Source of the DNA: a virus
DNA length: 36,706 nt
Virus record (IMG/VR): IMGVR_UViG_3300042555_003025
Coordinates: 1-36,706 of that record
Strand: one strand, 5' to 3'
The notes beneath the pieces are model-generated. The model was given only the letters and a program-made list of their open reading frames with translations. It made no database searches and was not told the DNA's origin. Positions 1,353 through 36,706 of the stretch are shown in pieces; position 1 is the first letter of the stretch, and each line of letters begins with the position of its first letter. A program made the position numbers and the translations under genes.

Positions 1353-1913
1353 TTACCGCATCCTAACATACAAACGGTTGTGGGTGGGCAGGCCCTTGGC
1401 CAGTCGCTCGGCCTGCTGATCGGCAAAGGCCTCGCGCTTATAATGATCACGCCACTGCATCAGTTCCAAAATTGGGATATATTTCAGGGACCGCGTCCCG
1501 ATGGTGTATTCTTGCTGTTCTTTGGTGGACCGGTTTTCCAGCATGGCCTCGATGGCATCCAGCATCCGGCGGGCGTGGGTTCGCGCCTCAAAGGTGCTGT
1601 TGGCCGTGGCCAAGTTGGGGGTCACGGTCAACGTGCCTGTTTCCAGCGTCACCCGCACGCCCGTTTTTGTGGCATAGCTGGCCCATTGGTAAACCCCAGC
1701 AGGCAACCCCGCCGACTGCACCGCCGTGATGGTGCTACTCCACCCCGTGCCCGAGGTGGTGGCGGTCACATCCAAACTGCCCCCCGATCCGCGAAAACTT
1801 GTGGCCAACGTATATGCGGCGGAATCAATCGGCAATCCGGTGACAGTATCCACACCCGCCGCCGTCAGCCACGTCAAAGAATCGCCGGAAATCAGGGTGC
1901 TAGGGATACTCAT
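1353..1913 (-). CDS. gpW-like head-tail joining protein with N-terminal beta domain
   Basis: A 186-residue protein with two parts. Residues 1 to about 100 are rich in Thr, Ser, Gly and Val and look like an all-beta domain. Residues from about 108 (ARTHARRMLDAIEAMLENR) to the end are helical and resemble gpW-like joiners, with the pattern IGTRSLKYIPILELMQWRD. gpW plugs the portal and prepares the head for tail attachment. Lambda gpW has only 68 residues, so this is a longer form; similar two-part proteins occur next to portal genes in other phages. It lies between the methyltransferase and the portal, with 1 base before the portal start. The start ATG at 1913 has a G-rich stretch just upstream and a regulatory-looking 19-mer at 1931-1949. 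Confidence 0.72.
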   Translation of the reverse strand: MSIPSTLISGDSLTWLTAAGVDTVTGLPIDSAAYTLATSFRGSGGSLDVTATTSGTGWSSTITAVQSAGLPAGVYQWASYATKTGVRVTLETGTLTVTPNLATANSTFEARTHARRMLDAIEAMLENRSTKEQQEYTIGTRSLKYIPILELMQWRDHYKREAFADQQAERLAKGLPTHNRLYVRMR

Positions 1914-1930
1914 ACCCCCAGCATGGCGTA

Positions 1931-1949
1931 GGCAACACCGCTGCCAAGG
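1931..1949 (-). promoter_or_regulatory. Sigma-54-like -24/-12 element, copy A
   Basis: Read on the minus strand this is CCTTGGCAGCGGTGTTGCC. It fits TTGGCA-N6-TTGC, the spacing of RpoN promoters, with an A-run just upstream. It matches copies at 21421-21441 and 36421-36441 with one difference over 18 bases (against copy B). The predicted start would be near 1920, only about 7 nt before the gpW-like ATG. Promoter activity is inferred; the repeat itself is seen directly. Confidence 0.45.
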
Positions 1950-1955
1950 GTTTTT

Positions 1956-3236
1956 TTAGGGGGTGGGCAAAATGTACCCATCCTCTAGCAAAGGGGCCTC
2001 TTGCCTCTTTTTTTCCTTTTCGTGTTCAATCCTACGCTTGGCGATTTCAAGATAGCCATTATCCATCTCAATCCCTGTGAACGAAAAACCCGCTTGAACA
2101 CACCCTTTCCCTGTGGACCCGCTCCCCATAAACGGATCCAAAACATGACCGTCTGGCGGCGTGACCAACGTCACCAAATACCGCATCAAGTCTGTGGGCT
2201 TTACGGTGGGATGATGGTTTTGATCTTTGCTTGGGGTGTCCGGTTCTTTACCTTCACCAATGCCCGCATTGTACCGGTGAACATCTTGTAAGGGCATATT
2301 ATCCAAACCATCATTGCGATCCCGTTTACTGGCTTTAGCGCAATAAAAAAAACGGGCGGCAGAACCGCCGTCGTCAGTTACGCCCAGAGAGGGATATCTT
2401 ACGCTAACGTTAAAGGTGCTAGGTTTATTGTTCCGCGGGTGGCCGCTACTTTTACCTGTTTCAGGGAACAACCCCAAAACCTCTTCGCTGCCATCGTGGA
2501 TCAGGTTTGCGGGCCAGCGGCCTTGTACTGGCCTTGCATCTAGGTTTTGGTCTAACCTACCGGAATATCCGTTACTGGGACTCCCACCCCAGCCTGTTTC
2601 TTTTTCGATTTGGATCCGTGTTTCATCTATATTAAACCCCCCCGTGCCCCACGCTAACACATTCCCCGTCACGGTCCCCACCAGCGGCTTGCGGGCCACG
2701 GTGATGGGTTCCAAAGCGGGCTTCAGGGCAGTGCCCCAGCCTTGCCATTGGCGGCCAGCTTCGGTGACGGGTTTGTCTCCATCAACTTCTGTGTAGCCGA
2801 GTTCCTGCGCCCGCTCCATCCATGGGCGAAAATTGCCTGCCGCGCTGCTGTATGCGGTGGCCGCACTTGGTCTGCGGATTTTCTCCCGCTCCGCACCCGC
2901 CGCCTTGTCGATAGCCTTGCTCACGTCATGCGACTTTGGAAACCCCGACCCATACACCCATGCGATCATGTCCCTGATTTCAAAGCCTGCTTCCTCAATC
3001 CGCACAGCCATGCGATGTTGTGTACGTGTACCCGCAAAAGCGAGCAAGTGGCCTCCGGGCTTTAGGACTCGAAAACACTCGACCCAGATTTCAACACTTG
3101 GGACATCGTAATCCCATTTTTTCCCCATAAAAGATAGGCCGTATGGTGGATCCGTCACAATGGAATCAAAACTGTTGTCATCAAACGTTTTCAAAACATC
3201 AAGGCAATCGCCGAGAAAAAAATTGGTTTTTTGCAT
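1956..3236 (-). CDS. DNA methyltransferase, beta-class (N6-adenine or N4-cytosine)
   Basis: A 426-residue DNA methyltransferase. The catalytic motif DPPYG is at residues 29-33 and the AdoMet-binding motif DPFMGSG is at 367-373, so the catalytic motif comes first, as in the beta class. A VKPTDLMRYLV stretch precedes motif I, as is usual for this group. DPPY favours adenine-N6 methylation; the roughly 200 residues in the middle would hold the target-recognition region, and the site cannot be read from sequence. No restriction partner is visible, so it is an orphan enzyme that may protect packaged DNA from host restriction or mark it for another purpose. The start ATG 3236 follows a good GGGAG ribosome site. 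It lies between terminase and the gpW-like joiner, an unusual place. Confidence 0.9.
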   Translation of the reverse strand: MQKTNFFLGDCLDVLKTFDDNSFDSIVTDPPYGLSFMGKKWDYDVPSVEIWVECFRVLKPGGHLLAFAGTRTQHRMAVRIEEAGFEIRDMIAWVYGSGFPKSHDVSKAIDKAAGAEREKIRRPSAATAYSSAAGNFRPWMERAQELGYTEVDGDKPVTEAGRQWQGWGTALKPALEPITVARKPLVGTVTGNVLAWGTGGFNIDETRIQIEKETGWGGSPSNGYSGRLDQNLDARPVQGRWPANLIHDGSEEVLGLFPETGKSSGHPRNNKPSTFNVSVRYPSLGVTDDGGSAARFFYCAKASKRDRNDGLDNMPLQDVHRYNAGIGEGKEPDTPSKDQNHHPTVKPTDLMRYLVTLVTPPDGHVLDPFMGSGSTGKGCVQAGFSFTGIEMDNGYLEIAKRRIEHEKEKKRQEAPLLEDGYILPTP

Positions 3237-3239
3237 TTT

Positions 3240-5156
3240 TTATCTCCCTAAAACTCTATCCGTAAACGCACTGCGCCGCGTGTGGATGGCCGGTGCGCGT
3301 GTGGTCTTTGTCGAGGCAGGTGCCGACGATGGGGCAGCAACAGTCGCCTCAGCCTTGGGCTGCAACCGATCCGCAAAGACCTTCCAAATCTGGGTCCGAT
3401 CCGCGTGCATGTACAGGACGTGCAGGGCGGCGTAGGCGTAAACCTCGCAGTCAAGGGCCTCGTTGCGGTCCGTGCTTTTTTTCGTCCATTCCTTTTTGGG
3501 ATACCCGTTGCGGTAACGAATGATCTGTCTTTCTGACGTCAGCTGTTTAAAATACTCTGGCCCAACCCCATGATAAAAGTGGTACTGGCCTTCCCCTTCA
3601 GCAGATTTCAGGCGGGCGTAAATGGTGCTTTTTATGGTATCGGATCCCACCGGATACAGCTCCGCCCCCTTTTTGATCGCCTGCCCCTTGTAGTTCAAAT
3701 CCACTTTCACAGGCCGACCCACGGGGGACTTGCCCGCTTGCGATTGCCCCTTGATCGCCACGGCCCCCAAGGTGCGCTTGTGATCGCGGCAAAAGGCATA
3801 CACTTGCTGCGTGTGGTGTCCACCGCTGTCAATGGCCACAATGCGGGGGGTCAGGGTCGCCCCCAGTTCGTGCTGGATCGGGGACTGTAGCAGGGATTTC
3901 AATTGGACCCACACGTTGGACAGGGCGGGGTCGCCGTAAATCTCGGTGTGGTAAATCAGCCACGATTGTTCCCCCGCGCCCCAGCCCCGAATCACCACCG
4001 CCAGACGATCGTCCTGCACGTCCACCCCCGCCGTGGCCAGACACACTGGCTCGGGGGCCGTCATGGGGTCGTAAAATTCACAGCGACTGGCCAGATTGTC
4101 AGAATCCAAAACCGAGGTGTACTCATCATCAAACGATTCTGCCAAAACCGTGTTGACCCACGTTTTCAGACGCTCGCGGTTGCTCTTGGCATCCAAAAAT
4201 CCCCCCACAATATCCGCCCAAGACCGCCAACCCACGGGGCAGTACAGGGCATTCAGATGATACCCCACCGTCTTTTGTCTTTCCGCCTCTGCTGTGGCCC
4301 GCCACTGCCCCGCCGCCAACATGGCGGTTTTGTGATGTTCCTCGATCCGGCCCGCGCATTGCTCGCAGTCATACCAAACATCGCGGGTGTTTTCTTTGTG
4401 CCACTTAATCCCCGCCCAAACCAAGGTTTGTTCATGCCCGCAATGGGGACAGGGCACAAAATAAAACCGCTGATCGCTGGCCTTAAATTCCGTCTCAATG
4501 CGGGAAAGGCCCTTGATTGTGGGGGTCGATGTCAGCAGGATTTTCCGCCGTGAAAAGGTGTTGGTGCGTTGCTCTGCCAGCAACACAGGGTCGCCTTCCT
4601 CTTCCACGTCGGCGGGGTAACGGTCCACTTCATCCAAAAACAGATACCGCACCGGCATGGATGACAACGCGCTGGCCGAATTGGCCCCCGTCATAATCAA
4701 AAACCCGCCCCGAAACTCTTTCACCAGCATCGTATTGCTGGCATCCCGCGCCCTTGGGGCCGACACCAACCCGCGCAAGGCTGGCGTTTCGTCAATCATA
4801 GGGGCGATCCGCTGTTTGGATAGCCGCTTGGCCATATCCACCGTGGGCTGCACTGCCAGAATGGGGCCGGGGGCAAAGTGCATGATGTAGCCCAGCCAGT
4901 TATTCCCCGTTTCCGTTTTTCCGGTCTGACTGGCAAACATCAAAACCACCCGCTGCACAGGGCTTGACGGCGAAAGATCATCCATAGGGTCTTTCAGGTA
5001 CGGGGTCCGAGACGTTCGCCACGGACCCGCCTCACTGGCCCCCTTGCTGGACAAAAAGCGGTAGGTATCCGCCCACTGCGACACCGTCAAATCAGGATCA
5101 GGCCGCCACCCTTCACGGTAAAATTCATCATACAAAACCGCCCCATCTTGCATCAT
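3240..5156 (-). CDS. terL: Terminase large subunit, lambda gpA family
   Basis: A 638-residue packaging motor and nuclease of the GpA family (lambda gpA is 641). The Walker A-like motif FASQTGKT is at residues 74-81 and the Walker B YLFLDE at 171-176. A zinc-ribbon pattern, CPHC followed later by CEQC, is typical of this family. The C-terminal part holds GVDVQDDR and, near the end, NEALDCEVYAYAA, both expected in the nuclease domain. GpA-type terminases normally cut at cos sites, so this phage probably has cohesive ends. It overlaps the small subunit by 4 bases (start 5156; the second ATG at 5153 is also possible). Confidence 0.95.
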   Translation of the reverse strand: MMQDGAVLYDEFYREGWRPDPDLTVSQWADTYRFLSSKGASEAGPWRTSRTPYLKDPMDDLSPSSPVQRVVLMFASQTGKTETGNNWLGYIMHFAPGPILAVQPTVDMAKRLSKQRIAPMIDETPALRGLVSAPRARDASNTMLVKEFRGGFLIMTGANSASALSSMPVRYLFLDEVDRYPADVEEEGDPVLLAEQRTNTFSRRKILLTSTPTIKGLSRIETEFKASDQRFYFVPCPHCGHEQTLVWAGIKWHKENTRDVWYDCEQCAGRIEEHHKTAMLAAGQWRATAEAERQKTVGYHLNALYCPVGWRSWADIVGGFLDAKSNRERLKTWVNTVLAESFDDEYTSVLDSDNLASRCEFYDPMTAPEPVCLATAGVDVQDDRLAVVIRGWGAGEQSWLIYHTEIYGDPALSNVWVQLKSLLQSPIQHELGATLTPRIVAIDSGGHHTQQVYAFCRDHKRTLGAVAIKGQSQAGKSPVGRPVKVDLNYKGQAIKKGAELYPVGSDTIKSTIYARLKSAEGEGQYHFYHGVGPEYFKQLTSERQIIRYRNGYPKKEWTKKSTDRNEALDCEVYAYAALHVLYMHADRTQIWKVFADRLQPKAEATVAAPSSAPASTKTTRAPAIHTRRSAFTDRVLGR

Positions 5157-6343: not shown

Positions 6344-6556
6344 TTATGCCTCTTGTGGTGCAGGGTTAAGGGCCTCACGGGTGCGTGTTAAGGCATAAAA
6401 GGCCCATTCGGCGATTGACTCGAACAGGAAGGCGCACCATCCGTAGTGTGATATGGCATGCTCTATCTCTGGTATAGAATACCCATGGTTGGCTGCCAGA
6501 TAGGTAAGGGATAGGTCTTGGGTGTTTTTTGGTAGTGTGGTTAAGGTCTGGGTCAT
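6344..6556 (-). CDS. Hypothetical protein, 70 residues
   Basis: A small protein that I do not recognise. It has a good AAGGAGA ribosome site 6-7 nt before ATG 6556 and sits between a replication-region gene and the gpZ-like gene with short gaps on both sides, so it is likely real. The sequence includes NHGYSIPEIEHAISHYGWCAF followed by a helical end rich in Ala and aromatic residues. No signal peptide or clear membrane segment is seen. No function is assigned. Confidence 0.65.
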   Translation of the reverse strand: MTQTLTTLPKNTQDLSLTYLAANHGYSIPEIEHAISHYGWCAFLFESIAEWAFYALTRTREALNPAPQEA

Positions 6557-7908: not shown

Positions 7909-8202
7909 CTATTCCTCCTTTTTCCGTAAAAACACCACATTCCCCTTTTGTTCCTGCACGGGATCGGTTTCTGGTGGGCTTTGGGGCGGCGGCCATAGGC
8001 CAGCGGTTTCCAGCATGGTGCGTATGGGGTAAATCAGGCGGTTGGCCCATTTGGCTTGCCGGTCTGTCAATCCGTCGTTGCTTAGGGCATAATTCAGCAG
8101 GCCCACCACAAAGACATAATCCTCGCCGTCACGGTCCATGATCTGGGCCATGTAGCCCAGCCATTCTTTGAACGATTCGTCTTTGGGGGGTTTAGGTGGC
8201 AT
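7909..8202 (-). CDS. Hypothetical protein of replication operon
   Basis: A 97-residue protein starting MPPKPPKDESFKEWLGYMAQ. I do not recognise a named domain; it is helical with a Lys/Glu-rich end. ATG 8202 has a GGAGG site 6 nt upstream, better than the longer start at 8271. It overlaps the end of the preceding gene by 11 bases and ends 5 bases before the replication initiator start, so it is translated as part of a tight operon. A role in replication or its control is possible from position only. Confidence 0.62.
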   Translation of the reverse strand: MPPKPPKDESFKEWLGYMAQIMDRDGEDYVFVVGLLNYALSNDGLTDRQAKWANRLIYPIRTMLETAGLWPPPQSPPETDPVQEQKGNVVFLRKKEE

Positions 8203-8767
8203 GGGGGGCCTCCAAAATGCGGACGGTGTAGTTTTTTGGGTTGTCCCCTTGGGTTGGGGGCATGTGGGCAATTTTTCTTTTAAAAAACAGGTGATTCAGG
8301 GCGGCCATAACAATGTGTTGGTGTCCAAAGGCGACAAGGTCATCAAGGTTGAAGGAAACAACACTGCCTTTTTTTGCTTTGCCCGTTAAATGGGCAAGAA
8401 GCGGCCCCGAGCATTCATAGGGGTCACGATAGCCTGTCAATTCAGGAAGGGGCCTGTACCCCTCTTTTTCTGGCCGGTGCGCGGTGACCCTTACGGCCTT
8501 TTTGGATCCCACCATGGGGGTAAAAATGGGATTGATACGATCGACGCGGCATAACATGGTGGCCACGCTGGCGCGGGACACGTTTTCGATGGCACCGTAG
8601 AACGCCAAGCGGGTCAGGCTGCGGTTAAGGGAGTCCTTGGTTATGGAGAGGGTTTCCTGAGCGTCGCGCAATCGGTAAACGGCAATCCCATCGCTGCCCG
8701 CACGCTGGCACAGCCATTCATGCAGCCGGACAAGGTTTTCATAGGGGGCGCATCGTTCATGCGTCAT
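8192..8767 (-). CDS. Hypothetical protein with HTH-like region
   Basis: A 191-residue protein beginning MTHERCAPYENLVRLHEWL. Residues of about 10-70 (helix, then LRDAQETLSITKDSLNRSLTRL) could form a winged helix, suggesting DNA binding, but I cannot name a family. ATG 8767 lies inside the end of the DUF1064 gene (11-base overlap) after a G-rich site, so coupled translation is likely; a start 45 codons upstream runs through the neighbour in another frame and lacks support. By position it could be a replication or regulatory factor. Confidence 0.58.
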   Translation of the reverse strand: MTHERCAPYENLVRLHEWLCQRAGSDGIAVYRLRDAQETLSITKDSLNRSLTRLAFYGAIENVSRASVATMLCRVDRINPIFTPMVGSKKAVRVTAHRPEKEGYRPLPELTGYRDPYECSGPLLAHLTGKAKKGSVVSFNLDDLVAFGHQHIVMAALNHLFFKRKIAHMPPTQGDNPKNYTVRILEAPHAT

Positions 8768-9164
8768 GGCTGCCCCCCATGATGGCCTGTTGCAAATCGG
8801 TCCATGACGTGAACACCGAAACGCCGTATTTGTCCTGCACGATGGCGCGTTTAAGTTTGGACTCGGCTGTATCAAAGCCCTTGCAATCCGCCACAAGGGC
8901 ATGGCCGTTTTTGAGAAAGATCAAAAAGTCTGCCGTGTAGGTGGGGGGCCTATCTTCGTGGGTCAGGGGGAATTTGGGGCACTGGGGCAGCCACGATAGG
9001 ATCGCGCCCGTGGATTGCAGGGTGTCCAAACGCTGGGCCCATTCGGCCTCGGCGCGGCTGTGGTACATGCGGCCCTTATAGGGGGTGCGGGTGTTTCCGT
9101 ATTTGCTTCGGCTTTTGGTCTTTATCAGTTTTTTATAGGCGGCGGCGGTTATACGGTCATTCAT
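8757..9164 (-). CDS. DUF1064 protein, PD-(D/E)XK nuclease-like
   Basis: A 135-residue DUF1064 protein, a phage family with a PD-(D/E)XK nuclease fold. The hallmark KYGNTRTPYKG start (residues 21-31), an acidic residue in HSRAEAEWAQRL (39 or 41), Asp79 in YTADF and the DCK motif at 93-95 fit the catalytic set. Probable substrates are branched or single-stranded DNA intermediates in phage replication or recombination, by family analogy. It overlaps the Cro-like gene by 8 bases and lies at the head of the leftward operon. Confidence 0.82.
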   Translation of the reverse strand: MNDRITAAAYKKLIKTKSRSKYGNTRTPYKGRMYHSRAEAEWAQRLDTLQSTGAILSWLPQCPKFPLTHEDRPPTYTADFLIFLKNGHALVADCKGFDTAESKLKRAIVQDKYGVSVFTSWTDLQQAIMGGSHDA

Positions 9165-9405
9165 GATGACCCTCAGCGGTGGCGTTTTTTTTCCGTTTTT
9201 GCCGCTGAATATGTAACCAATGTATCAATAAATCTTCGCCCTTAACCGCCCCGCCGGTGACTTTTTCGATTTCTTCGATGCTTTCCATGCGTGGTAACGC
9301 CACGCCCCGAATAAACCGATTCAGCTTGGCTTGATTGATGCCAACCTGTCGCGCGAATTGGGCGCAATTTTTTTCAGCCAGTTGTAGCCAGACGTGAAGT
9401 TTCAT
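9157..9405 (-). CDS. Small HTH regulator, Cro-like
   Basis: An 82-residue protein starting MKLHVWLQLAEKNCAQFARQ. Residues of about 12-50 form a helix-turn-helix of the YdaS/Cro type (QFARQVGINQAKLNRFIRG). The first gene of the leftward operon, divergent from the repressor, it fits the place of cro. ATG 9405 has no ribosome site; a GTG at 9435 lies within the operator region and is less likely. Transcription would start near 9432 from a promoter with TTGACG. It probably competes with the repressor at the AGTAC operators, which is inferred from layout. Confidence 0.72.
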   Translation of the reverse strand: MKLHVWLQLAEKNCAQFARQVGINQAKLNRFIRGVALPRMESIEEIEKVTGGAVKGEDLLIHWLHIQRQKRKKNATAEGHHE

Positions 9406-9428
9406 AGGACTTATTGGGTGATGTATAA

Positions 9429-9443
9429 AGTACACCTAGTACT
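9429..9443. promoter_or_regulatory. Operator candidate, left (AGTAC-N5-GTACT)
   Basis: A perfect inverted repeat AGTAC-ACCTA-GTACT overlapping the -10 region of the leftward promoter. The same dyad, with spacing five, recurs on the other side of the repressor gene. Repressor or Cro-like binding is inferred. Confidence 0.65.
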
Positions 9444-13007: not shown

Positions 13008-13378
13008 CCTTAGAATCCGAAACGTTAAAAATATCCCACGACAGCGGATCCTTGACCTTTACGGGGGACGAGGTCAAAGCCGTGACCGCCAGCTTGCGGT
13101 CTTTGGCAGAAACGCCGGAGGATTTTCCTTTAAAGGCTTTGGCAAACCGCGTTCTGTTTTTGAGAAACGAAATGCGGGCGATTCGGGAAGACATTGCCAC
13201 CCTTTACAACGACGCCAAGGGGGACGGTTACAACCTCAAAGCCCTGCGCTTGCTCGTGAAAATCATGGAGGCGCAGGCCGATGCTAAAAAAAGGCAGGAG
13301 ATGCTGGAGGTGTCGGGCTGTTTGCAGCTTTACGCCCACCATGTAGGACAGCCACTGTTACCGGGGATGGCGATATGA
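13004..13378 (+). CDS. GapR/DUF2312-like DNA-binding protein
   Basis: A 124-residue protein. Residues of about 48-113 resemble GapR (DUF2312), the nucleoid protein of Caulobacter and other alphaproteobacteria that encircles overtwisted DNA: LRNEMRAIREDIATLYNDAK, GDGYNLKALRLLVKI and the helical end with LQLY. The first 45 residues are an added N-terminal part. It is coupled to recT before it and to the excisionase-like gene after it (both ATGA overlaps). It might affect supercoiling during recombination, replication or integration. Similarity is judged by eye. Confidence 0.68.
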   Translation: MTLESETLKISHDSGSLTFTGDEVKAVTASLRSLAETPEDFPLKALANRVLFLRNEMRAIREDIATLYNDAKGDGYNLKALRLLVKIMEAQADAKKRQEMLEVSGCLQLYAHHVGQPLLPGMAI

Positions 13379-13755
13379 CCAGCCAAGCCCTCCCCGAAAT
13401 CTGTACCCCCGAAGAGGTGGCGGCGTTCCTGAAAACCACGCCAGCCCACATCAAAACCTTGGCCAGAAAACGGCGGTTAAGGGCCTTTCAGATTGGCAGC
13501 CGCTGGCGGTTTCACCAAAAGGATATTTACGATTATATAGAGGAAACAAAGACATGCCCAGAAAAAACACAGGACCGCGCCTTGAGTGGCGGCAAGACCG
13601 AAGCGTTTTTGAAATCGTCTGGTTCGAGCGGGGAAGCCGCCGCCGCCAAAGCACGGGCACAAGCGACGCTGAGACGGCACGAGAGTATTATCAAGGATTC
13701 CTTGCACAGAAACCCGCCGACAACCGGCCAAGTCATCCCGATGCACGCTATATAG
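13375..13755 (+). CDS. Excisionase-like HTH protein
   Basis: A 126-residue protein. Residues 10-58 (CTPEEVAAFLKTTPAHIKTLARKRRLRAFQIGSRWRFHQKD) form the MerR-like winged helix of the helix-turn-helix-17/excisionase family. It probably binds attachment-site DNA and directs Int toward excision, or regulates int. The C-terminal 66 residues are read from DNA that also encodes the integrase N-terminus in another frame, a 202-base overlap. Lambda xis and int also overlap, but less. The distal part is low in complexity and might be dispensable. Confidence 0.72.
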   Translation: MTSQALPEICTPEEVAAFLKTTPAHIKTLARKRRLRAFQIGSRWRFHQKDIYDYIEETKTCPEKTQDRALSGGKTEAFLKSSGSSGEAAAAKARAQATLRRHESIIKDSLHRNPPTTGQVIPMHAI

Positions 13756-15891: not shown

Positions 15892-16081
15892 TAAGGTGCT
15901 ACAAACACCAAGCAAGCGTGACTACTACGAAAAGTTAGAGCCCACATTTTGGTTATGTCGGGAGTCGGATAATACAATACCCGCAAGGGGAATACTCCGG
16001 CAGCACTTGTTTCTGTTTGTAGCTCCTGACGTTAAGTGGCCACGTCCTATGGGCCTCTGTTTACAAGCAGGAAACAAGACT
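15892..16081 (+). promoter_or_regulatory. Structured 5' leader of antirepressor gene
   Basis: This stretch of about 190 bases has no credible gene. It holds nested pairable segments: GCCCA (15940-15944) with TGGGC (16050-16054), GGAGT (15961-15965) with ACTCC (15994-15998), GACGT (16028-16032) with ACGTC (16042-16046), and CTTGT (16006-16010) with ACAAG (16063-16067), the last directly before the AGGA ribosome site at 16069. The final pair conflicts with some of the others, so alternative folds could control translation. Confidence 0.4.
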
Positions 16082-20970: not shown

Positions 20971-21378
20971 CTAAGCGTTAGCATCGGTCAAAGAAAATGA
21001 TGTGATGGTAAATTGCTGGCCAGTGGCAAAAGAGACGTTATCGACGGTAATATCACCGCCACCGCCCGTAGCCGTCACGCTGCCTTGAAGGTGACAGGTT
21101 GTTCCCGAACTGTCGTAAATACGGTAATGGGCAGCCGTTCCTGTGGCATCCGCTGCTGCATCCTGCCATGTGCCAAGAAGAGATTTAACACCGCCAGAGG
21201 CGGCCGACATCCAGTCACTGGGCAACGTCAATGTCGCCAATACTGTGCCAGAGTCTGCGGTACCACAGTTTGTTGGGGCGGCTCCTGTACGAATTCGGAG
21301 AATTGCTGAAGCCCCAATTGTGCTTTCAATAACATCAAGACGCCCGTTGCGAACAGCTACCGATAATTGAATCGCCAT
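20971..21378 (-). CDS. Conserved phage virion-region protein
   Basis: A 135-residue protein starting MAIQLSVAVRNGRLDVIES. The pattern IRTGAAPTNCGTADSGTVLATLTLPSDWM and HYRIYDSSGTTCHLQGSV recurs in many phage genomes as a small conserved protein of unknown role, often near tail or head-tail genes. It is mainly beta. A sigma-54-like element lies 43 bases upstream, giving a predicted 33-nt leader. It is the first gene after the attP region on this strand. Confidence 0.72.
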   Translation of the reverse strand: MAIQLSVAVRNGRLDVIESTIGASAILRIRTGAAPTNCGTADSGTVLATLTLPSDWMSAASGGVKSLLGTWQDAAADATGTAAHYRIYDSSGTTCHLQGSVTATGGGGDITVDNVSFATGQQFTITSFSLTDANA

Positions 21379-21420
21379 AAAAACCCCATGAAAATGTTAC
21401 CTTTATAAAAAGCGTAACGT

Positions 21421-21441
21421 GGGCAACACCCCTGCCAAGCG
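21421..21441 (-). promoter_or_regulatory. Sigma-54-like -24/-12 element, copy B
   Basis: On the minus strand: TTGGCA, six bases, TTGCC, after an A-run. It differs from copy C (36421-36441) by one base in 21 and from copy A (1931-1949) by one in 18. The predicted start is near 21411, 33 nt before the 21378 start codon, where the leader has a G-rich site. Confidence 0.48.
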
Positions 21442-21612: not shown

Positions 21613-21657
21613 TTCCGAATCTGAGGGTCGTTGGTTCAAGTCCAATCGAGCGCACCA
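21613..21657 (+). other. attP core candidate: 3' part of a tRNA-Arg gene
   Basis: These 45 bases read as the anticodon loop TTCCGAA, stem, variable loop, a full T-arm (GTTGG-TTCAAGT-CCAAT), the acceptor 3' strand CGAGCGC and ACCA. There is no matching 5' half: neither GCGCTCG nor a D-arm occurs upstream, so it is not a working tRNA. Many phages carry such a fragment so that integration rebuilds the host tRNA. The loop would make the target tRNA-Arg(CCG), if the loop is inside the shared segment. The integrase gene is 7 kb away. Confidence 0.72.
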
Positions 21658-34547: not shown

Positions 34548-36386
34548 TTAAGGGGTTAAAGCGTCATCCATAACGGCAAAGGCCGCAGCTTGGCGAATCC
34601 CAAAATCCGCGTATTGATTGATGGTGATGCGCACCTGTCCATTGGTAGCCAAGGTGTAGGGGTCAATGGTGATTTCTGGGGAATCAAACAAAGCCAAAAC
34701 CGCCATGTCCCACATGCTGGAGAAAATCACCGATGAACACACACCGTTGGATGACCCTTTGGTGAGGTTACTGGGCACGTTATTGGACACCGCCACACGG
34801 TAGTCGTTCAATGGCTGCGCCCCACCATCCCACAAAAATTGTAGGTTTGTGGCCTTTTGTGTGCCTTTGGCCGTGCCACGGGTTTTGGTGTTGATCAGGT
34901 AACCCGCTGTCCCATCGGGCTCTGCGTTGGCGTTGGCCACGGCAGATTCCAAGCCAATGACGTGGGTCCAAGCAAAGTTAGCCCCGTTAGTGCCACCCAC
35001 AACAGATCCCACGCCGGACGTGTTCCGAATACCCCGCATGGCAGGGGCCGTACCACTTCCATTGATACACTCGTTTTCAATGGTCACAGCCAAGGATTGT
35101 AACAGATCATCCCGCAGCATAGCCTCAATGGAAATGCCCGATTGCAAAATGGCCTGCTTTGAATACTCCACAAACGCGCTTTTTCTCCGAGGCGTCAAAG
35201 ACAATTTGGCCGTTGTGGGCTGGGTTTCCGTTGCCGCTTGAACCTCTGTCACGTTACCAATGGATGAAGCGACCGTTTTGCGGGGGATATCGATATTGCC
35301 GGAAAGGCCCGTTAAAAACCGAATTCCCAAGCTGCCCATAACCAGATTGTTACGCAAAACATCGGTAAACATGTCATATCGGGTGTCTGTGGCCACAAGG
35401 TTTCCGGCCTCAGAGGCTGTTGCCACATTAAAATCACGACGGAAAATGTCGAAAGGCACAAAAAATCCACCCTCGGACACAGGCTTGCCCGTTCTTTTGG
35501 CCGCCGCCGCAACCGCTTCCCGCTCAAGGCCCGCCTGTGACCAATCGCCGGTCAGTTTGGCTTGGATTAAGCGTACCAAGGAAAAGTTCCTGACTTCTTT
35601 TTGGGTCATGCCAATGTGAAGGCTGCTGGTGTCCATGTGCTTTGTGGACATTTTGGCCATGATGGTGTCTTTGAATTGCTCCACGGTGTGGCCGCTACGG
35701 ATGGCGGTTTCAACATCTTTTTCCGTGACATAACCGCTGAAGGCATTTTTCATTTCATAAATGCCATTAATGCGGGCTTGGGGGTCGTGTTGGGTCAGGG
35801 CTTCGGTCATTTTAGGTTCCTCTTTCGTGATGGTGATTTGGGGTTGGGCTTTGGTTTGAATGTCAGGCTGGGGTTCAGGGTCAAGGGTGGGGGTATCATC
35901 CGACCGCCCCACACCGACGCCAATATCAGCGGGGATGGCCACGAGGGAGATTTCATAGGGCTGCCAGTCCGTGGCCCTGTAAACTTTGGTTTGGCCTTGG
36001 CCCTTAACCTCTTCAAATGTATGCACGACGTAACCGACAGACACAGACCGGCGGATGCCGTCCAAAACATCCTGATAAATTTCTTCGGCCCGTGCGCTAC
36101 GGCCAAAACGGACAACGGCCCTTGCCAGACCGTCGCCCTCGTCAACGGTGACGCTGTCCACAACACCGATCACATCGTTTGGGTCATGATTGACCAACAA
36201 ATTGGCCCCGCTTTCCAAACGATCCAAACGAATCTCTTGGCTGCGGTGGCCCAAAATCTCCATGCCAAAGGTGCGCTCGTAGGGAACATCCGAGCTAAAG
36301 GCCAGCGTGACGGTGCGATCATCCGACGGCTGTAAATCCGCGGTTTTGATTTGCAAGGTCCGTGTGTATTTTACGCTTGTTTTCAT
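34548..36386 (-). CDS. Prohead protease-major capsid fusion (HK97 type)
   Basis: A 612-residue protein joining two functions. Residues 1-160 are a U35 prohead protease: His67 (LLVNHDPNDVIG), Ser116 (RRSVSVGY; Ser114 is next best) and Glu145 (PYEISLVAIP) make the expected triad. A linker rich in Pro, Lys and Asp (155-200) leads to the scaffold-like delta region and then the HK97-fold capsid from about 300, with GGFFVPFDIF, SGNIDIPRKTV and NECINGSGTAPAMRGI. Cleavage after assembly would free the capsid. The start overlaps the portal stop (ATGA) and follows AGGAGG. Lambda uses a different protease, so the head module is a mosaic. Confidence 0.93.
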   Translation of the reverse strand: MKTSVKYTRTLQIKTADLQPSDDRTVTLAFSSDVPYERTFGMEILGHRSQEIRLDRLESGANLLVNHDPNDVIGVVDSVTVDEGDGLARAVVRFGRSARAEEIYQDVLDGIRRSVSVGYVVHTFEEVKGQGQTKVYRATDWQPYEISLVAIPADIGVGVGRSDDTPTLDPEPQPDIQTKAQPQITITKEEPKMTEALTQHDPQARINGIYEMKNAFSGYVTEKDVETAIRSGHTVEQFKDTIMAKMSTKHMDTSSLHIGMTQKEVRNFSLVRLIQAKLTGDWSQAGLEREAVAAAAKRTGKPVSEGGFFVPFDIFRRDFNVATASEAGNLVATDTRYDMFTDVLRNNLVMGSLGIRFLTGLSGNIDIPRKTVASSIGNVTEVQAATETQPTTAKLSLTPRRKSAFVEYSKQAILQSGISIEAMLRDDLLQSLAVTIENECINGSGTAPAMRGIRNTSGVGSVVGGTNGANFAWTHVIGLESAVANANAEPDGTAGYLINTKTRGTAKGTQKATNLQFLWDGGAQPLNDYRVAVSNNVPSNLTKGSSNGVCSSVIFSSMWDMAVLALFDSPEITIDPYTLATNGQVRITINQYADFGIRQAAAFAVMDDALTP

Positions 36387-36706
36387 GGGGTATTATCCTC
36401 CTGTGGTTCAACCGTATCTTGGGCAACACCCATGCCAAGCGAAAAATTCAGGCCCAAACTTTTTGCGTCATCCTGCTCTTTTTGCAGCTGCGCCCAGACG
36501 TCATACAGGTCGCGGCCTTGTTGGGCGGCGGCCTCTGTTCTGCTCATCAGGCCGTTATTGATGGCGGCAATGGTGGCCTCAATATCCTTCAGCGGGTCCA
36601 CCCACGCCCAGCGGCGGCCTTGCCAGACGTGGCGCATGGCCTCCCCCCGATCCCGAACGGACAAGGGTATGCCGCGATCACTAAGAATCAGGCCCTTCAA
36701 AATCGC
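36383..36706 (-). CDS. Portal protein, C-terminal part (continues at 1)
   Basis: This frame is the end of the portal gene that begins at 1351; the two parts share the 127-bp repeat and the same codon phase. From residue 409 or so it reads AILKGLILSDRGIPLSVRDRG, ATIAAINNGLMSRTEAAAQQGRDLYDVWAQL (the conserved portal helix region) and ends QEDNTP. The stop overlaps the capsid fusion start. Confidence 0.93.
   Translation of the reverse strand, partial: AILKGLILSDRGIPLSVRDRGEAMRHVWQGRRWAWVDPLKDIEATIAAINNGLMSRTEAAAQQGRDLYDVWAQLQKEQDDAKSLGLNFSLGMGVAQDTVEPQEDNTP
36421..36441 (-). promoter_or_regulatory. Sigma-54-like -24/-12 element, copy C (inside portal gene)
   Basis: On the minus strand: TTGGCA, six bases, TTGCC. 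It matches copy B over 21 bases with one difference. Lying within the last codons of the portal, it would start a transcript near 36411, 25 nt before the capsid fusion ATG and just ahead of its AGGAGG site. Confidence 0.48.
36580..36706. repeat. Direct terminal repeat, right copy (circular contig join)
   Basis: Identical to bases 1-127. When the copies are merged, the portal frame is continuous and the total is 36,579 bp. Confidence 0.95.

Follow-up and report, generated by a model that had tools for sequence, protein, structure and literature searches.

A 28-bp element repeated ahead of three virion-gene groups in an uncultured temperate phage: a candidate set of late promoters

Small phage activators that read short repeated half-sites at several promoters are familiar from lambda CII, whose sites have the form TTGC-N6-TTGC, and from P2 Ogr, on which the P2 late promoters depend. 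The promoters activated by the Mor and C proteins of Mu have weak -10 elements, and the proteins act on them from -35 or farther upstream (PMC4390567, PMC4461284). The dyad bound by Mor stands in for the -35 element and adjoins an A/T-rich site for the alpha-CTD (PMC4390567).

Here we describe a temperate phage, known from metagenomes alone, in which the starts of three virion-gene groups have a signal of ~28 bases in common. The window (the whole stretch analysed, 36,706 nt) begins and ends with the same 127 bases (1-127 and 36580-36706), so the genome is circular, with a length of 36,579 bp; the portal gene crosses the record junction. As with the Mu promoters, several putative activator sites lie ahead of lytic or virion units; they are bipartite with a G/C-rich centre and a possible short-armed dyad, with an A-tract next to sites 1 and 2 and a putative weak -10, and diverged relatives have a Mor-like gene close to their first element. 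Unlike Mu, the phage shows no detectable Mor/C protein in the window, where the sites are also dissimilar to the elements of those relatives, and it encodes an integrase and RecE/RecT-like proteins, not Mu-type transposition. The short half-sites repeated at several putative promoters also recall CII and Ogr, with a half-site spacing of 12 as opposed to 10 in lambda CII sites; family searches of the phage reported no CII- or Ogr-like protein.

A three-copy element ahead of virion genes

An exact search for TTGGCA-N6-TTGCC returns three copies in the record and no others (1947-1931, 21438-21422 and 36438-36422), the same minus-strand sites that the initial annotation had singled out. All are oriented with transcription and each precedes a virion gene (Table 1), at distances of 17, 43 and 35 nt from the start codon for sites 1, 2 and 3, in agreement with the 17-43 nt given there. 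Allowing up to one mismatch, the window holds 7 matches, compared with 2.3 +/- 1.5 in shuffled genomes, a control that the annotation had proposed. Its near-identical pair, differing at one position over 21 bp, corresponds to sites 2 and 3, and the copy it had placed within the portal coding sequence is site 3, which falls within the last portal codons.

The common element is longer than first described, extending to ~28 bp with the consensus TTGGCAnnGGTGTTGCCYAmGnyAYGsT. A 28-bp matrix scores the three sites at 49.4, 45.3 and 45.0 bits; the next-best site in the window reaches 6.4, and the maximum across 20 first-order Markov random sequences is 14.9. The element contains a partial dyad with short arms, TnGGCA-N7-TGCCnA, and an A-tract adjoins its upstream side at sites 1 and 2.

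Table 1. Positions of the three sites and of neighbouring features in the window
Feature	Coordinates	Strand	Context or profile match
Site 1, TTGGCAGCGGTGTTGCCTACGCCATGCT	1920..1947	-	ahead of gpW-position gene (ATG 1913)
Site 2, TTGGCAGGGGTGTTGCCCACGTTACGCT	21411..21438	-	ahead of virion structural gene 20971-21378
Site 3, TTGGCATGGGTGTTGCCCAAGATACGGT	36411..36438	-	inside portal gene 3' end, ahead of capsid fusion gene (ATG 36386)
A-tract directly upstream of site 1	1951..1957	-	survives replacement of DNA farther upstream
Head-tail joining gene, gpW position, first after site 1	1353..1913	-	phrog_5774, E 3e-39
Variable cassette slot, TerL to site 1; DNA methyltransferase in the window	1956..3236	-	phrog_67, E 2e-75
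Terminase large subunit (TerL), fixed gene upstream of the slot	3240..5156	-	phrog_15, E 4e-245
Virion structural protein gene, first after site 2	20971..21378	-	phrog_3758, E 3e-33
Capsid protease-major capsid fusion gene, first after site 3	34548..36386	-	phrog_617, E 2e-131
tRNA-Arg(CCG)-like 3' half ending in CCA	21614..21657	+	about 180 bp ahead of site 2

Retention in close relatives

In IMG/VR, the 28-bp form is found in the phage group of the window, with seven other matches that do not have the flanking signature (L222, L224, L228, L229, L231-L233). The motif core alone was dropped as a query, since chance matches dominate among the matches listed. Close relatives carry the element at every readable place, the conservation that the initial annotation had put forward as a check, and variation within the group falls almost wholly in the N6 spacer.

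Site 1 is kept in L005, L008, L012, L018, L019, L022 and L220, although the slot between it and TerL differs among these phages: L008 has ParB/methyltransferase-like frames there, L019, L022 and L220 have a BRO-N-type gene, and in L012 the slot is empty. Across these contents the A-tract and site 1 are essentially unchanged, apart from one spacer base in L008. Because the upstream DNA is exchanged or lost, site 1 is the most telling of the three for retention. Within the methyltransferase gene of the window there is also a minus-strand terminator-like hairpin with eight T (2369-2355).

Site 2 is unaltered in L023-L028, and L044 has it with one change. Relatives gathered by the 21378 protein were tried as a further comparison and set aside, the distant ones having no site. 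The tRNA-Arg(CCG)-like piece is held at the same place in relatives and is probably attP. The integrase gene is about 7 kb away, and a search of 84,980 genomes gave neither an exact nor a degenerate match to it.

Site 3 is kept in L004-L008, L012, L018, L019, L022 and L220. The four bases following TTGGCA (36429-36432) occur there as TGGG, GCCC, AGGG or GCGG, which alters two codons, in contrast to the invariant blocks on either side and the nearly unchanged surroundings; the last three of these bases are G or C in every allele. Over 5.9 kb around this site, L005 differs from the window at these four adjacent bases and at two single positions besides. Such a cluster could suggest a block mutation, which we rejected: alleles of the L005 type are present in other strains, making recombination the simpler explanation. 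In comparisons of L006-L009 and L016 with the window, the capsid block (34561-36386) is diverged, at about 82-85% DNA identity, and its neighbours are better conserved. Since close relatives are similar overall, we take retention at sites 2 and 3 as only moderate evidence of selection.

Mosaic breakpoints coincide with site 1 and come close to site 3, and the phage encodes RecE- and RecT-like proteins, as would be expected if the copies were conserved linkers that steer homologous recombination between modules and have no regulatory role. Many breakpoints occur without the motif, however, and a linker would not explain the bipartite conserved pattern, the variable centre or the orientation. 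We consider this reading highly improbable.

A sigma-54-like core and other readings

The initial annotation had noted that the spacing of the core equals the RpoN -24/-12 signature, and this is so at all three sites, each of which has the GG-N10-GC core within TGGCA-N6-TTGC. The sites might accordingly be host sigma-54 promoters, with TGGCA as the -24 block and TTGC as the -12 block, which an enhancer-binding protein of host or phage would fire. The confinement of nearly all variable bases within the group to the N6 spacer is consistent with this, as are the leaders of 25 and 33 nt that sigma-54 geometry yields at two sites. The 25-33 nt leaders described earlier thus hold at those two, but they presuppose the geometry, which leaves site 1 with a 7-nt leader and no usable ribosome site.

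Several further observations argue against sigma-54. First, with a matrix built from 29 intergenic sites of Salmonella (PMC3844500), which may not suit the host of this phage, the three sites score 6.6, 9.6 and 12.8, compared with 16.2-23.5 for the training sites. They rank 24, 12 and 2 within the window, and random sequence yields 30, 8.6 and 2.3 sites per genome at these scores, placing them at chance level and below the range of true sites. Second, conservation reaches well past the core: 11 of the 19 positions outside it are identical in all three sites (p about 3e-9). Moreover, the -11 base is C, and the base after TGGCA is G, G and T, or A in relatives. Third, no sigma-54 activator domain was found among the phage proteins. 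Finally, the element of distant relatives (see below) has GG-N9-GC, whereas GG-N10-GC is obligatory for sigma-54. Our literature search found no report of sigma-54 late promoters in phages. Host sigma-54 as the late switch, one of two options in the initial annotation, is therefore unlikely, and a divergent host sigma-54 would have only core and spacing in its favour. The other option, a phage protein that binds the motif, fits better, and the comparison corrects a sigma-54 call to which a match of the core by itself would have led.

The shared columns reach as far as a putative -10, and TTGGCA matches TTGACA at five of six positions. Both features would suit ordinary housekeeping promoters that use no phage activator, with TTGGCA as -35, 16 bp, and YAYGST as -10; site 1 would then give a leaderless gpW mRNA. 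Yet this -10 is poor, the conserved TGTTGCC would fall unexplained in the spacer, and capsid would be made constitutively in the lysogen, at a cost, so we regard such promoters, too, as unlikely.

All copies lie on the sense strand 17-43 nt ahead of starts, where they could equally act in the late mRNA as operators or as processing or antitermination sites. The RNA of site 1 folds well (z -3.3), but a common fold is absent (z 0.2 at site 2 and 1.2 at site 3), the phage holds no complementary copy of the motif, and Rfam has no family at the three sites. A role in RNA is thus quite unlikely. Elsewhere in the window, an Rfam match to sRNA-Xcc1 (15957-16038; 54.5 bits, gathering threshold 53) overlaps the 5' part of a BRO-N gene.

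Paired elements in distant phages and a candidate late switch

In distant phages with the gene order TerL-gpW-portal-capsid, the two corresponding places are taken by paired elements that differ in sequence from those of the window. These diverged relatives show 29-50% amino-acid identity to the window in gpW, portal and capsid. One of them, L021 (capsid 40% identical), has an identical 26-bp dyad, GGACATTTTTTGCCTTAACAATGTCC, before its gpW-position gene and before its capsid gene. Using the dyad core as a query, we obtained a family of sites, 26 of which, chosen by eye out of 66 stretches, align as GGnCAyTTTTTGCCTTAAC-N18-CATyCT, in which the distance to CATyCT is almost constant, resembling a promoter and its -10. 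No paper containing this element was found in the literature.

Two copies at ≤1 mismatch are present in 8 of 10 records; G006 has a second copy with two mismatches, 15.7 kb off, and G005 has one copy. Wherever both genes were mapped, the copies stand before gpW and before capsid, the first lying 2.2 kb ahead of gpW in L272. The same slots hold two further paired classes: the element of L389 is a 32-bp palindrome, and that of L402 a TGCAAC/GTTGCA dyad. Uncultured phages (L257, L269, L279, L284, L290, L389, L402 and others) thus combine paired promoter-like elements, of at least three sequence classes, with a Mor-like gene after TerL. The cultured relatives VP882, CRP-811, CRP-821, FoX2 and Persinger proved unsuitable for comparison because their portal and capsid genes overlap, leaving no room for an element.

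Of the 13 loci examined, 12 have the Mor-like gene in the interval from TerL to the first element. Its distance to the element varies: 6-28 nt separate the two, counted from the stop codon, in most loci, and 96-605 nt do so in L274, L238, L284 and L265. L245 has no such gene within the 700 nt read, and one farther upstream on its contig (L394). The proteins are about 84-98 aa long (a few with a longer open frame) and have a Mor/C-like GGERVYI motif and a C-terminal helix-turn-helix. Pfam Mor matches five records, one of them above the curated cut-off, and one of the proteins had no match in a cultured phage. Among the analysable loci of a wider survey, a pair was detected where a Mor-like gene is present and not where it is lacking, with the window's group as the exception.

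The window phage carries its element ahead of both the gpW-position gene and the capsid gene, the arrangement by which we define a pair here. It has in common with the relatives (L257, L269, L284, L290 and others) the two slots, the orientation and the near identity of copies within a phage. It differs in that the sequence is unrelated, there are three copies where the relatives have two, and variable cassettes, not a Mor-like gene, lie between TerL and the first element in its group. Neither Pfam Mor nor a profile of the relatives' proteins detects a Mor-like protein in the window or its close relatives. Motif positions 23-28 read CATGCT, TACGCT and TACGGT, a good match to the relatives' -10 at site 1 only; when the relatives' -10 matrix was carried over to the three sites, a joint test did not favour this offset.

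Given paired elements at the same two places in distant phages, mostly with a Mor-like gene, sites 1 and 3 are best read as this lineage's version of the paired activator-dependent late promoters, and site 2 as a third copy beside attP. We consider it probable (roughly 0.6) that all three copies are phage-specific late promoters that depend on an activator and are read by the host housekeeping RNA polymerase; their identity as promoters, their need for an activator and their start points we infer from sequence comparison. A hypothetical phage-encoded DNA-binding activator would recognise TTGGCAnnnnTGTTGCC, just downstream of the A/T tract, and let that polymerase start three late units: the gpW-portal unit from site 1, the structural/lysis cluster 21378-17255 from site 2, and the capsid and tail unit from site 3. 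In the integrated prophage, attP would part the site 2 cluster from the other late genes and, cut off in this way, the cluster would need a start of its own.

No regulator was identified in this analysis, and the earlier remark that no Q-like one is visible stands. The 70-aa gene at 6344-6556 was rejected as too variable (59% in L220) to read a conserved site. An early 191-aa protein (8192-8767) probably has two winged-helix domains, according to a low-confidence model (pLDDT 51), and is possibly a regulator or a replication protein. The genes at 9157-9435 and 13375-13755 are further candidate regulators.

Tentatively, a broad family of uncultured phages may have preserved a late-promoter slot, before gpW and before capsid, and swapped the sequence and the activator that go with it. 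In several members a Mor-like activator would act on dyads that differ from phage to phage. The lineage of the window may have lost the Mor gene, acquired exchangeable cargo genes in its place, and had its two promoters and a third copy, by the prophage end, rewired to a new activator.

Beyond the lambda, P2 and Mu models of how temperate phages switch on virion genes, the three copies would provide, for one lineage, a late-promoter set defined by sequence. For the family, the comparison suggests a rule that phages from metagenomes could put to the test: elements stand in pairs, one ahead of gpW and one ahead of capsid, and a Mor-like gene is often close by.
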